From assembly GCA_017860255.1 (NCBI GenBank), contig JAFNAR010000001.1, positions 1 through 64,000 of the forward strand: a DNA stretch of 64,000 nt. Reading direction: 5' to 3'. The stretch's first letter is position 1. Each line of letters opens with the position of its first letter. The translations under genes and the position numbers were made by a program. A model generated the notes under the pieces. The model saw nothing but the letters and a program-made list of their open reading frames with translations, was not told the DNA's origin and searched no databases. The stretch is from Bacteroidota bacterium (GTDB lineage: Bacteria > Bacteroidota > Bacteroidia > Bacteroidales > P3). Of the stretch, positions 13,084 through 59,215 are shown in pieces.

Positions 13084-13160
13084 AACCCCTAAATCCCCTA
13101 AAGGGGACTTTTGATGACACATAACGCATACCCAGTTCCCCTTTAGGGGGCAGGGGTGAA
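13084..13160 (+). repeat. A-type repeat, copy A2
   Basis: Begins TTAACCCCTAAATCCCC, contains CCCCTAAAGGGG and ends CCCCTTTAGGGGGCAGGGGT, so the two ends are inverted copies of each other. Confidence 0.75.
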
Positions 13161-14141: not shown

Positions 14142-14276
14142 TACCCCAACCCCCTAAAGGAGGCTAGCCAGAACATATATTTATCCCTTTAGTGCAGAAG
14201 TAAAATATAGACAAGAGTTTTTTTCAGGATAAAGTTTAATAGTACTTGTTCCCCTTTAGGGGTTAGGGGTAAAAAA
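14142..14276 (+). repeat. A-type repeat, copy A3
   Basis: About 135 bp, beginning ACCCCAACCCCCTAAAGG and ending CCCCTTTAGGGGTTAGGGGT. It fills the gap between rmlA and the next gene, and the middle part differs from A4/A5. Confidence 0.75.
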
Positions 14277-15568: not shown

Positions 15569-15706
15569 ACCCCCAACCCCCTAAAGTGGGCTTAACCAAT
15601 ATAACGAATATCTCCCTTTAGGGTAGGGTTAATACACATTTATTCCCCTTGTTTTTATGATAAAAGTTCAATAGCACAATTCCCCTTTAGGGGTTAGGGG
15701 TAAAAA
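15569..15706 (+). repeat. A-type repeat, copy A4 (left flank of the DUF559 gene)
   Basis: 138 bp, nearly identical in sequence and length to A5 at 16079-16215, and in the same orientation. Its right end runs to within 5 bp of the DUF559 ATG. Confidence 0.85.
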
Positions 15707-15710
15707 AATC

Positions 15711-16076
15711 ATGCAAATCATTATAAAACCATCAATGTTTTATGGAGCAAATCCAGAAATATTTGTAAAAGCAAAAGAGTTACGTGAAAACATGACTGAT
15801 GCTGAGAAAATATTATGGAGTCGTTTGAAAAATAAGCAAATTGGAGAAAGATTTAAACCCCAACATCCTATTTCAATATTTATAGTTGATTTCTATTGCC
15901 ATAGTAAAAAACTTGTAGTTGAAATTGATGGGGGTTATCATAAAACTCAATTAGAATATGATAATGGAAGAACATCTGAACTTGAACATTTTGGAATAAA
16001 GGTAATTAGATTTACAAATGAAGAAGTATTAAATAATATAGATAAAGTATTGGATGTGATTAAGAAGCATCTTTAA
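15711..16076 (+). CDS. DUF559 domain protein (Vsr/restriction-endonuclease-like fold)
   Basis: 121 residues. The family signature is clear: KAKELRENMTDAEKILWSRLKNKQIGERFKPQHPI, then FIVDFYCHSKKLVVEIDGGYH. The D...E-x-D pattern (VDFYC, VEIDG) matches the PD-(D/E)XK-like active site of Vsr-type nucleases. No cognate methylase is adjacent. The gene is bracketed at a distance of 3-5 bp by two near-identical direct repeats (A4, A5), so it reads as a discrete inserted unit inside the rml region. Its function in vivo is unknown. Confidence 0.85.
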   Translation: MQIIIKPSMFYGANPEIFVKAKELRENMTDAEKILWSRLKNKQIGERFKPQHPISIFIVDFYCHSKKLVVEIDGGYHKTQLEYDNGRTSELEHFGIKVIRFTNEEVLNNIDKVLDVIKKHL

Positions 16077-16078
16077 CT

Positions 16079-16215
16079 ACCCCCAACCCCCTAAAGGGGG
16101 CTTAACAAATATAACGAATATCTCCCTTTAGGGCAGGGGTAATACATATTTATTCCCCTTGTTTTTAGGAATAAAGTTCAATAGCACGATTCCCCTTTAG
16201 GGGTTAGGGGTAAAA
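16079..16215 (+). repeat. A-type repeat, copy A5 (right flank of the DUF559 gene)
   Basis: Starts 2 bp after the DUF559 stop. It has the same end motifs and the same internal ACGAATATCTCCC and TTTATTCCCCTTG blocks as A4, so the two form a direct repeat around the gene. Confidence 0.85.
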
Positions 16216-16259: not shown

Positions 16260-16328
16260 TACCCCAACCCCCTAAAGGGGGCTTAATCATTACATCTAAT
16301 AACTCCCTTTAGGGGTTAGGGATAAAAA
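16260..16328 (+). repeat. A-type repeat, short copy A6
   Basis: About 69 bp with both ends (ACCCCAACCCCCTAAAGG and CCCTTTAGGGGTTAGGG) but lacking the second half of the longer copies. It sits just before rmlB. Confidence 0.75.
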
Positions 16329-17403: not shown

Positions 17404-17452
17404 ATTCCAGTGAAAAACTAAAAGTTAAAATTGAAAAATCTCTTTAATAGAT

Positions 17453-17607
17453 TGACATTTTAAAATTATCGTAAAGTGGAAGAGACTTAAAACCGTAAAG
17501 AAAGTTTATTCTGTTTGAGTGAAACGAGTTTATAAACTTTTAGGTTTTCAGACTCTGGAATAGGTAATTTTGTATAGTCTTGATTTTTGCTTCGTTTGTA
17601 TCAAGAC
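17453..17607 (-). repeat. B-type hairpin element, copy B2 (reverse)
   Basis: Reverse orientation of the family: begins at the GTCG-type end (GACATTTTAAAATTATCG) and ends with GTATCAAGAC. The outer stem pairs AAAATTA with TAATTTT. Confidence 0.7.
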
Positions 17608-17912: not shown

Positions 17913-18014
17913 TTAACCCCTAAATCCCCTAAAGGGGACTTAACCATTACAAATAATAACTCCCTTTAGGGTAGGGGTAATACATATTTGTTCCCTTTAG
18001 GGGTCAGGGGTATA
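17913..18014 (+). repeat. A-type repeat, copy A7
   Basis: TTAACCCCTAAATCCCC start, internal CCCTTTAGGGTAGGGGTAA, end CCCTTTAGGGGTCAGGGGT. Confidence 0.7.
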
Positions 18015-18102
18015 TAAAGTGAAAAACTGCTTCGCCCCAACCGACATTTTGAATTTGTCCACGAATTACTCTAATTGCACAAAGATATACGGCATCGCCC
18101 AA

Positions 18103-18258
18103 TCGACATTTTAAAATTACCGTAAAGTGTAAGAGACTTAAAATTGTAAAGAAAGTTTATACTGTTTGAGCGAAGCGAGTTTATAAACTTTTAGATTTTC
18201 AGACTCTGGAATAGGTGATTTTGAACAGTCTTGATCTTTTGTTACTTTTGCATCAAGG
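18103..18258 (-). repeat. B-type hairpin element, copy B3 (reverse)
   Basis: Reverse orientation. The outer stem AAAATTACC pairs with GGTGATTTT, the core reads AACGAAGC-type GCGAAGCGAGTTTATAAAC, and it ends with the TTGATC...CATCAAG hairpin. Confidence 0.75.
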
Positions 18259-18334
18259 TAAAAGTAAGTTGAAAAGAAGATAAAAGTAATTGTCTGAACC
18301 AAGATTAAACAGATTAAATGGTTTACCATGAATG

Positions 18335-18415
18335 TTAACCCCTAAATCCCCTAAAGGGGACTTTTTGCCGACACACAAGCTTTACACGGTTTCCCCTTTA
18401 GGGGTCAGGGGTAAA
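18335..18415 (+). repeat. A-type repeat, copy A8
   Basis: Resembles A2 (same TTAACCCCTAAATCCCC start and a variable middle with ACACA), ending CCCCTTTAGGGGTCAGGGGT. It lies 70 bp before the nucleotide-sugar dehydrogenase. Confidence 0.7.
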
Positions 18416-45049: not shown

Positions 45050-45454
45050 TTATATCCAACCTTATAAAGGCGAGCTCGAGTAATGGTATTTTAATAATCG
45101 CTCCCTGTATGTTGATTTTATGATTATCTTTTTAACTGTATGGGTAATTATTTTTCCTAAGAGTGATTTGGTTTATAAAGTTTTTCCTTCGCTGCCAAGA
45201 TTGAACAAAGAGATTTTTAAATTGTAATTTTTAAATTTTTAATTTGGGACTGTTCACATATTAATAAAAAACCTAAAAAGTCTATAATTTATTCTGCAAT
45301 ATTGATAAGCGTTTTACTTTTGTGGAACGCTTATTTCTATTTTAATCCACAGACTTTATAGTGAAAAGATAATAGAGAAAAGTGAATAGTGAATAGTGAC
45401 CTGTTGAACAGAGTTCGAGAGTATCGAAGTTAATAGTTTTCTACTTACTTTTAC

Positions 45455-45609
45455 TTTGATGCAAAAGTAACAAAAGATCAAGACTGTTCGAATTTAGCTA
45501 TTCCATAAATTTTAAAACTAAAAGTTTATAAACTCGCTTCGCTCAGATAGTATAAACTTTCTTTACCTTTTAAAACTTCTTCCATTTAACACTAAATTCA
45601 AAATGTCGG
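45455..45609 (+). repeat. B-type hairpin element, copy B4
   Basis: TTTGATGCAAAAGTAACAAA start; outer stem GAATTT/AAATTC (weaker GG position changed to AG); core AAAGTTTATAAACTCGC with TATAAACTTT; end TGTCGG. First unit of the tandem array. Confidence 0.8.
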
Positions 45610-45742
45610 TTTTTAAAGATAAAATTTTTTCTGCTTGTTTCCCCTTTATAGGAGTTAGGGGTGATTAAAGTGAAAAGATTAAAGTGACCCGAAGAACTGA
45701 GTTCGAGACCATCGAAGATAATAGTTTTCTACTTACTTTTAC

Positions 45743-45896
45743 CTTGATGCAAAAGTTACAAAATATCAAGACTGTTCGAATTTGGCTATTCCATAAATTT
45801 TAAAACTAAAAGTTTATAAACTCGCTTCGCTCAGACAGTATAAACTTTCTTTACGTTTAAAACTTCTTTCACTTAACGCCAAATTCAAAATGTCGG
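45743..45896 (+). repeat. B-type hairpin element, copy B5
   Basis: Second unit, 288 bp after B4. The outer stem GAATTTGG pairs with CCAAATTC (GCCAAATTC on the right). Same core and end. Confidence 0.8.
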
Positions 45897-46042
45897 TTTT
45901 TTAAGTAAAAAATTTCTTCTGCTTGTTTCCCCTTTAGGGGTTAGGGGTGATTAAAGTGAAAAGATAAAAGTAAAAAGTGAATAGTGACCTGTAGAACAGA
46001 GCTCGAGAGCATCGAAGATAATAGTTTTCTACTTACTTTTCA

Positions 46043-46198
46043 CTTGATAGAAAAGTAACAAAAGATCAAGACTGTTCGAATTTGGTTATTCCATAAATTT
46101 TAAAACTAAAAGTTTATAAACTCACTTCGCTCAGACAGTATAAACTTTCTTTACGTTTTAAAACTTCTTCCATTTAACACCAAATTCAAAAGGTCGGT
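46043..46198 (+). repeat. B-type hairpin element, copy B6
   Basis: Third unit, 300 bp after B5. Outer stem GAATTTGG/CCAAATTC; ends AGGTCGG rather than TGTCGG. Confidence 0.8.
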
Positions 46199-46227
46199 TT
46201 TTAAAGATAAAATTTCTTCTGCTTATT

Positions 46228-53293: not shown

Positions 53294-53682
53294 TTTTTTT
53301 CGATCTTCATTTCACTTCGTGGCTCTCGAGCTTTGCTCTTCGGGTGTCTTGATACAAACGAAGCAAAAATCAAGACTGTTCGAATTTTCCTAAAATTCAA
53401 CTCAAACTTCTACAAGTTTATAAACTCGCTTCGCTCAGACAGAATAAAATTGCTTAATGAATTTTGAATTGAATTTCTTAACGTCAAATTCAAAATGTCG
53501 CTCTTTTATGTGATAAGTTGTTTTATTTGGCTTCCCCTTTAGGGGGTAGGGGTAAAAATCATAGTCTGTCATATAAATCAGTTAAATCATGGTTCAAGAC
53601 AAATATTTATATTTTTGTCACTATTCTGTTATAAAGTTATATTTGAACTTCATTTATCAATAATCATTTATCATTAATAAGT
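53294..53682. other. Intergenic region with B7 and an A-type half
   Basis: Holds the forward B7 element (53348-53500), its left flank GGCTCTCGAGCTTTGCTCTTC, and an A-type half (53533-53556). No gene or consensus promoter is seen before the deacetylase. Confidence 0.7.
53348..53500 (+). repeat. B-type hairpin element, copy B7
   Basis: TCTTGATACAAACGAAG start, ATCAAGACTGTTCG, core AAGTTTATAAACTCGCTTCG, end TGTCG. Outer stem AATTTT.../GAATTTTGAATT is more degenerate than in B4-B6. Its left flank resembles the reverse complement of the B2 flank. Confidence 0.7.
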
Positions 53683-58937: not shown

Positions 58938-59045
58938 AAACAATGTCATTGTTTTGAAGAAACAACCGCATTGTTTTTGGCAAACAATGGCATTGTATTA
59001 GTAAAACAACCGCATTGTTTTGAGTAAACAATGGCATTGTTTTGA
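58938..59045. repeat. Alternating array of five palindrome-like units, 22-bp period
   Basis: CATTGT starts at 58947, 58969, 58991, 59013 and 59035, exactly 22 bp apart. Units alternate ACAATG(T/G)CATTGT and ACAACCGCATTGT in the order A-B-A-B-A, separated by short A/T/G linkers. It is too short-period for CRISPR and has no spacers. Confidence 0.85.
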
Positions 59046-59215
59046 GATAAAAGTCTTATTTGATTAATTTTAATCTTCGATTTTGTAGTTATACTTATCG
59101 TTTGGATAGAAAAAGATGGGTTTAAGTTTTATAAGAATAAGCTCTTTCAATAAAAAAGTCAATATTCATCTTAAAATAATAATGGTTTGTTTATATCTAA
59201 AATAAGTCTTTCTAA

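Follow-up and report, generated by a model that had tools for sequence, protein, structure and literature searches.

DUF559 nuclease genes between hairpin arms look like an undescribed kind of tiny mobile element

The window, the whole 64-kb stretch of DNA analysed here, belongs to the 2.58-Mb assembly of a Bacteroidota bacterium (G000). Close to rmlA and rmlB it carries a short open reading frame that matches the DUF559 profile PF04480 with an E value of 5e-35 and 120.1 bits, far above the curated Pfam cut-off of 20.6; no other DUF559 match at E ≤ 0.001 occurs in the assembly. The first-pass annotation had described this gene as bracketed by near-identical direct repeats, A4 and A5, and this holds: 128 of 138 aligned columns are identical (89% over 158 nt in the repeat-family comparison), with gaps of 4 bp to the ATG (15711) and 2 bp from the stop (end 16076). 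The further copies it had placed at 13084, 14142, 16260, 17913 and 18335 were all located, offset by no more than 2 bp. What had gone unnoticed is that each A repeat is itself a pair of inverted arms, which makes the unit a MITE-like element of inverted repeats in addition to a direct repeat. The features concerned, all on the forward (+) strand, are:

13084..13157, +, gene-less two-arm element 5' of rmlA; present in the congener G002, not seen in G010
14143..14270, +, gene-less two-arm element in the interval between rmlA and the OmdA-family gene; a DUF559 copy lies at the equivalent G002 site
15569..15706, +, upstream two-arm repeat A4, left arm ACCCCCAACCCCCTAAAGTGGGC, right arm TTCCCCTTTAGGGGTTAGGGGT; from the sequence, its end-to-end fold being a prediction
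15711..16076, +, DUF559 nuclease gene, 121 aa, by PF04480 profile match
16079..16215, +, downstream two-arm repeat A5, oriented as A4 and equal to it in 128/138 columns
16261..16323, +, short two-arm element in the interval between A5 and rmlB
17915..18011, +, gene-less two-arm element 3' of rmlB
18337..18412, +, gene-less two-arm element 5' of the UDP-sugar dehydrogenase gene

Each repeat in the window starts with an outer C-run, followed after 2-4 nt by CCCCTAAAGGGG (A4 differs by one base), and its far end consists of CCCCTTTAGGGG, 2-4 nt and a G-run. The core palindrome CCCCTAAAGGGG is found in 40 exact copies in the genome, against none for a reversed-letter control, and with up to one mismatch 22 times in the window, where shuffles predict 0.06. 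Its distribution is uneven: the window holds 17 of the 40 exact copies, and about one would be expected under an even spread. Inverted arm pairs in this genome measure 47-116 bp. The window also contains repeats of other kinds. A second family (17451-17597, 18101-18275, 45437-45611, 45725-45854, 46025-46199 and 53294-53464) is distinct from the A-type arms and interleaved with them; its members are up to 175 nt long, 74-88% alike in pairs and present in both orientations, one strand reading AAGTTTATAAACTCGCTTCGCTCAGACAG. Between 45365 and 46251, a 299-nt unit is repeated three times head-to-tail (79-90% identical) with an A-type arm near the end of each, and at 58938-59069 there are 22-nt units in tandem (AAACAATGNCATTGTTTT...), each with a short palindrome.

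What kind of protein do these repeats enclose? A structure model built from 36 sequences reached a mean pLDDT of 86.7 (a single-sequence model, at 58.5, was discarded), and the top structural matches to it are NGO0050 (3hrl, Z 14.4), the homing endonuclease I-Bth0305I (3r3p, Z 10.5, rmsd 2.5, 89 aligned) and Vsr (1cw0, Z 8.8). Mitoribosomal chains are also among them (Z 8.3-9.0); TnsA reaches Z 6.1, in the range deemed common by the comparison tool. A sequence search agrees on the top two folds (3hrl 2.5e-30, 3r3p 2.3e-7), and a YcjD profile has been reported to detect Vsr, as far as the accessible part of that paper goes (PMC1189080). Residues E32, D60, E71, D73 and H77 are invariant in the 36-sequence alignment, window protein included, and are putatively catalytic, an inference from the modelled fold. 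Between the G000 gene and the G002 copy in the rmlA-OmdA interval, dN/dS is 0.28 (NG86) or 0.15 (YN00), which is consistent with purifying selection on the gene but comes from one pair only. PADLOC returned three weak matches, the best (E 1.2e-4) to part of the 1078-position DpdF model.

The first-pass annotation had proposed testing whether DUF559 genes adjoin such repeats far more often than expected, and the wider sampling shows that they do. A first sample consisted of DUF559 loci from named genomes, the best 80 of 527 confirmed relatives; four loci with short flanks were dropped, and 55 of the remaining 76 had flank-to-flank repeat scores above the 95th percentile set by 296 non-adjacent control ORFs. 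The 37 genomes behind these loci, with 1-13 DUF559 copies each, formed a second sample of 106 DUF559 domains (E ≤ 1e-12), of which 100 were assembled and 98, from 36 genomes, had sufficient flank. Of these 98 genes, 73 have a hairpin-plus-run arm within 300 bp upstream and 79 within the same distance downstream; 64 have one on both sides and 88 on either side. The same rule applied to 129 control ORFs yields 7, 9, 0 and 16, respectively. For ten of the 98, an arm was recognised on neither side, and 34 lack one on at least one side. Since the flanks of control ORFs are often coding, intergenic windows from 12 of the 36 genomes were added as a control, and 6 of 348 contained an arm. The arm rule, like the generic arm pattern used below, was devised after inspection of flanks that were partly those of the same loci; without any arm rule, the flank-to-flank repeat score still exceeds the controls' 95th percentile in 80 of the 98 genes. 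An underpowered comparison in 100-kb samples of 12 genomes (one of 40 kb) revealed few copies of a genome's own arms and no clearer specificity of the flanks for own than for foreign arms. One locus (L281, G076:C23:253966-255408) consists of a tandem of three near-identical DUF559 genes.

Arm counts across whole genomes follow DUF559 as well. Among 296 Bacteroidota genomes, the 126 with DUF559 (E ≤ 1e-15) average 16.7 generic arms and the 170 without it 1.6, compared to 0.5 and 1.06 for the reversed-pattern control; overlapping variants of one arm were tallied separately. The link persists within families, where genomes with DUF559 have the higher count in 20 of 24 mixed families and the lower in 3, and where none of 5000 within-family permutations matched the observed difference. 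At genus level, they are higher in 12 of 17 mixed genera, lower in 2 and tied in 3. After subtraction of four arms per DUF559 gene the mean is 10.2 and the median 0, and 26 of the 126 genomes retain at least 10 arms; the median of 0 implies that wide dispersal of arms is limited to a subset of DUF559-carrying genomes. At least 8 pattern matches are also found in 8 of the 170 genomes without DUF559. Of 61 relatives, 13 have a DUF559 match below 1e-15; the exact palindrome has 31-40 copies in 3 of these and no more than 7 in each of the other 10, and its count does not exceed 12 in the relatives without such a match, an unevenness showing that the arm sequence varies by lineage.

The relationship between gene-bearing and gene-less copies is most readily seen in G096. 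Its own 22-nt arm is present 113 times (up to 2 mismatches), compared to once in 13 other genomes combined and not at all for the reversed control. The loci read in this genome contain 27 inverted arm pairs: 21 are gene-less and 65-155 bp long, three of 544-551 bp each have DUF559 inside, and three are longer (654, 678 and 2416 bp) without being a DUF559 unit of their own, the 2416-bp pair beginning at another arm and reaching into a DUF559 unit included in the count above. The inverted ends of one unit, L332, are perfect over 30 bp. In this genome, units with and without the gene have terminal inverted repeats in common, which is the criterion for a pair of IS element and MITE. No target-site duplication was detected in 25 of the 27 pairs (two with short flanks were omitted), the mean longest match being 2.44 versus 2.47 in shuffles. 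In seven pairs of DUF559 copies, six of them intragenomic, homology ends at the outer end of the right arm in two (the G084 pair, 97.7% identical, and L332/L334 of G096) and at that of the left arm in two (L302/L314 and L328/L329); the other three have no arm-end boundary. The two G084 copies have the gene and right arm in common but not the left spacer, a difference more in keeping with a resident element having been converted than with the whole unit having moved. The 654-bp pair of G096 (L370, G096:C235:22240-22893) surrounds open frames other than DUF559, by chance or possibly as a captured gene.

Sites that carry a repeat and no gene, which the first-pass annotation had suggested looking for as a trace of clean excision, do exist, although excision itself is not shown. 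Within the window's genus, the rmlA-OmdA interval has a single repeat in G000 and G010 and repeat-gene-repeat-repeat in G002; in the EamA-rmlB interval, it is G000 that has repeat-gene-repeat-repeat, and G010 has two repeats and no gene. The second G002 site is partly N in the sequence and was left as such. At one leuS site compared in 10 genomes (going by their record titles, 6 Flavobacterium, 2 Gillisia, Xanthomarina and Dokdonia), 3 are empty, 2 carry an in-frame gene-less arm pair and 5 an in-frame DUF559 unit; the insertion lies in what we take to be the editing domain. An AddA/UvrD-like gene contains a DUF559 unit in 3 of 6 Flavobacterium genomes and lacks it in the other 3. In leuS and the AddA-like gene, the insert takes the place of about 10 residues and about 16 bp of variable linker; the exact junctions are unresolved, and the AddA-like one was read by eye, the MAFFT alignment being poor away from it. 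Two loci, L189 (G066) and L192 (G090), are gene-less arm pairs in the leuS frame that add about 39 residues.

Placement in an open frame of at least 500 aa is seen for 28 of the 106 DUF559 domains. Hosts in the 16 DUF559-carrying frames scanned comprise leuS (two positions), ileS, metH, hsdR, tryptophan dioxygenase, a DegT aminotransferase, MmeI-like and Eco57I-like RM genes, and UvrD-like and Lhr-like helicases; in a hemD host frame, DUF559 is at the N-terminus. On a DUF559 tree with 103 rows and 108 columns, in which 46 of the 100 inner branches are open, location labels require 18 changes as opposed to 33.3 in shuffles, and the AddA-site copies cluster with the Flavobacterium and Gillisia leuS copies (support 94, not starred). 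This pattern is expected if units occasionally change genes and are otherwise inherited in place. leuS site A has been used in many lineages, and its copies form clusters on the tree, needing 7 changes where shuffles average 12.4. One 1315-aa LeuRS open frame (L152, G093) has two DUF559 inserts at two different positions.

The arrangement is not restricted to Bacteroidota. Arms of like layout flank DUF559 in loci with record titles naming Chloroflexi, Anaerolineaceae, Armatimonadetes, Deltaproteobacteria, Phormidium and Nitrospirae, and among 6 inspected records of the 39 plasmid-collection matches they lie on both sides in Picosynechococcus, Deinococcus, Azospirillum and Sphingomonas, and downstream of DUF559 only in Photobacterium and E. 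coli KE47. Carriage as phage or plasmid cargo was considered and rejected, DUF559 being rare there: tblastn with the window protein hit 3 of 50,697 phage and 39 of 72,556 plasmid records. KE47 itself is a 4.94-Mb record filed as a plasmid. A pattern derived from the arm downstream of its DUF559 gene, ycjD, has 12 further matches (up to 3 mismatches) and none for the reversed control; one of the 12 (3 mismatches, opposite orientation) is also beside ycjD, the two arms lying 12 and 232 bp after the ycjD match. An inverted repeat that is not of the arm type, perfect over 19 bp and with a loop of 7 nt, lies upstream of E. coli ycjD (L146).

The E. coli arm leads to a repeat with a long history. 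E. coli has been known since the 1990s to carry BoxC/PIT/TM repeats, with their manner of distribution left open, according to the available portion of PMC4666352, which counts them in over 260 genomes, at very high frequency in some enterobacteria and cyanobacteria, and ties them to instability. The same portion reports no transposase or integrase remnants around TMECO sites and a triplex formed by the E. coli motif in vitro but not in vivo; BoxC itself is given as 50 bp with 22(20) copies in the accessible part of PMC2267715. By eye, our arms are like them in having a motif of three C/G-run blocks, which stands alone or in inverted pairs, lies between genes and is present in many genomes. 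The arm beside ycjD has T-T-A between two G-rich blocks, as the excerpt available from PMC4666352 gives for 'TMECO type A'. The layout of C-run and C/G-hairpin was recognised by eye in many of the DUF559 flanks shown, and there are no triplex data. Within the open-licence literature, we found no paper linking BoxC/PIT/TM to DUF559, none on DUF559 that deals with repeats (by title and start of abstract) and none on PF04480, COG2852 or YcjD that deals with mobility (by listing).

DUF559 genes are associated with arms, share ends with gene-less units, alternate with gene-less states at one site and are found with arms in several phyla. Since the pairing of DUF559 and arms recurs in many bacteria, even in frame in core enzyme genes, it has the appearance of a tiny mobile element of a kind not yet described; the long-known and unexplained E. 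coli repeat may be among its gene-less copies. We think it probable that the window harbours a member of a family of very small mobile elements in which DUF559 is the mover and the gene-less arm pairs are non-autonomous derivatives. We are less sure, while still inclining towards it, that DUF559 proteins are what makes the BoxC/PIT/TM 'triplex' repeats mobile. The two would then form a class of mobile element not recognised so far, with a gene-bearing form of ~0.5 kb, a Vsr/homing-endonuclease fold and hairpin/triplex ends, distributed over Bacteroidota, Cyanobacteria, Pseudomonadota, Deinococcota, Chloroflexi and others, and persisting in frame in core enzymes (LeuRS, IleRS). The inference of the first-pass annotation is upheld, with a reach well beyond the window: there is good support for the association, the cassette structure and the unit's mobility, and the role of the enzyme is a strong inference, though an untested one.

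How could such an element move? The gene-bearing unit of ~0.5 kb would consist of the DUF559 gene flanked by two inverted arms, each an outer C run followed after 2-6 nt by a C/G hairpin, and the gene-less arm pairs (~47-155 bp) would stand to it as MITEs stand to transposons and REPs/REPINs to RAYTs, namely as non-autonomous derivatives. That the unit is mobile is indicated by the ends that its copies share, by the derivatives without a gene and by the empty sites. The nuclease (PD-(D/E)XK / Vsr / EDxHD fold) may recognise the hairpin arm, perhaps as an extruded single strand or a triplex; the C/C/G arrangement could in principle form a triplex, and the form of DNA recognised is unresolved. 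Judging from the DUF559 fold, it would then nick or cut at the arm, and repair of the break from another copy would carry the element, or the gene with one arm pair, to a new place or into a resident arm pair. Insertion would proceed without a detectable target-site duplication, a short target stretch being replaced at the two sites examined. The lack of a duplication, the replaced linkers, the difference in the left half of the G084 copies and the G002 gene in a resident repeat site all suggest copying by break repair and not cut-and-paste. Since in-frame read-through of the arms is possible, copies would survive inside core genes. It is an inference, with no biochemistry behind it, that DUF559 is what moves the arms, that it acts on the arm as substrate and that copying occurs by repair.

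Several of these observations would also be met if DUF559 were a homing-endonuclease-like gene that merely copies itself into resident arm pairs or conserved sites in host genes, the arms being old and spread by other means. I-Bth0305I is among the closest folds, the G002 gene occupies a site with only a repeat in G000 and G010, the G084 copies combine a common gene and right arm with different left spacers, and leuS site A recurs in many lineages in a tree-clustered manner (7 changes versus 12.4). Homing alone, however, leaves the dependence of arm counts on DUF559, within families too, without an explanation, as it does the G096 arms, which are nearly confined to that genome among 14 and form 65-155 bp pairs with the same ends as the DUF559 units, and the arms that flank DUF559 in frame within genes having an empty state elsewhere; we consider it unlikely, though still a serious candidate. 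Far less plausible is that DUF559 serves the host as a Vsr-like repair nuclease, trimming or policing hairpin repeats and retained in their vicinity. The Vsr-like fold agrees with such a role, as does a Caulobacter DUF559 protein tied to a cytosine methyltransferase and predicted to be a mismatch-repair endonuclease, to judge from the part of that work at hand (PMC12907096). A repair enzyme would nonetheless have no need to be flanked by its substrate, to be present in 1-13 copies per genome or to sit in frame in leuS, ileS and metH.

Hairpin repeats of the REP type without target-site duplication are typical of Y1 systems, and this counts for the idea that a Y1 transposase of the RAYT/IS200 type, or another transposase, moves the arms with DUF559 as a passenger. 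Y1 matches (PF01797, E ≤ 0.001) were indeed found in 6 of the 10 genomes searched (G096 with 10, G084, G091, G066, G072 and G090), other transposase families lying outside the search. None was detected in G000, G002, G010 or G070, on which ground RAYT/Y1 was rejected as the driver as far as the Y1 family is concerned; moreover, DUF559 is the gene that recurs between arms across phyla, and of the 27 G096 pairs none exceeds 700 bp except the one entering a DUF559 unit. We give this idea very little credence. That the arms are ordinary intergenic filler or terminators beside an unrelated gene finds some support in single arms that resemble terminator hairpins and in the 10 of 98 DUF559 genes without arms, but it is contradicted by the flank association (64/98 versus 0/129 on both sides), by the phylum-wide dependence of arm counts on DUF559 in 296 genomes and by arms within coding frames, and can practically be discarded.

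DUF559 is still listed as of 'unknown function' in Pfam; should the mobile-element reading be right, it would suggest a function for this nuclease family, add a new enzyme class to the known DNA mobility systems and explain in-frame inserts in aminoacyl-tRNA synthetases and other core genes. With a candidate enzyme at hand, the question of how BoxC/PIT/TM repeats are distributed becomes testable in E. coli K-12 with and without ycjD.

Finally, we would compare the DUF559 element with systems already described. RAYTs are Y1 (HUH) transposases, encoded by a small gene in few copies per genome and accompanied by many hairpin repeats, often in inverted pairs, whose foot is of the GTAG type. The likeness in logic to RAYT-REP pairs with a different enzyme fold, anticipated by the first-pass annotation, is supported: here, too, a small gene in few copies stands beside many small hairpin repeats, partly as inverted pairs (40 palindromes in G000), but the protein has a Vsr/EDxHD nuclease fold, the foot of the arm is a C-run, and G000, the window's own genome, has no Y1 transposase domain, nor do G002 and G010. 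Membership among the RAYTs fails because the fold differs and Y1 is absent from G000. The EDxHD homing endonuclease I-Bth0305I resembles DUF559 in the sequence and fold of the catalytic domain and in insertion into conserved genes; DUF559, however, is found at many unrelated sites (with leuS site A recurring) and has hairpin ends in common with gene-less copies, for which reasons we do not class it as a homing endonuclease. A length of 121 aa also leaves little room for the extra DNA-binding regions that EDxHD homing endonucleases have, as stated in the accessible part of PMC3943268.

In-frame insertion in protein genes is a trait shared, without any sequence comparison on our part, with the Rickettsia palindromic elements, which are short palindromes found in frame in protein genes and in which we know of no nuclease gene. 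MITEs and autonomous transposons form gene-bearing and gene-less units with the same inverted ends, as DUF559 units and arm pairs do; the differences are another class of nuclease and the absence of a detected target-site duplication, which is usual, not universal, for IS elements and MITEs. From BoxC/PIT/TM repeats as published, the elements described here differ in that a nuclease gene is linked to the repeat and that copies lie in frame within genes.
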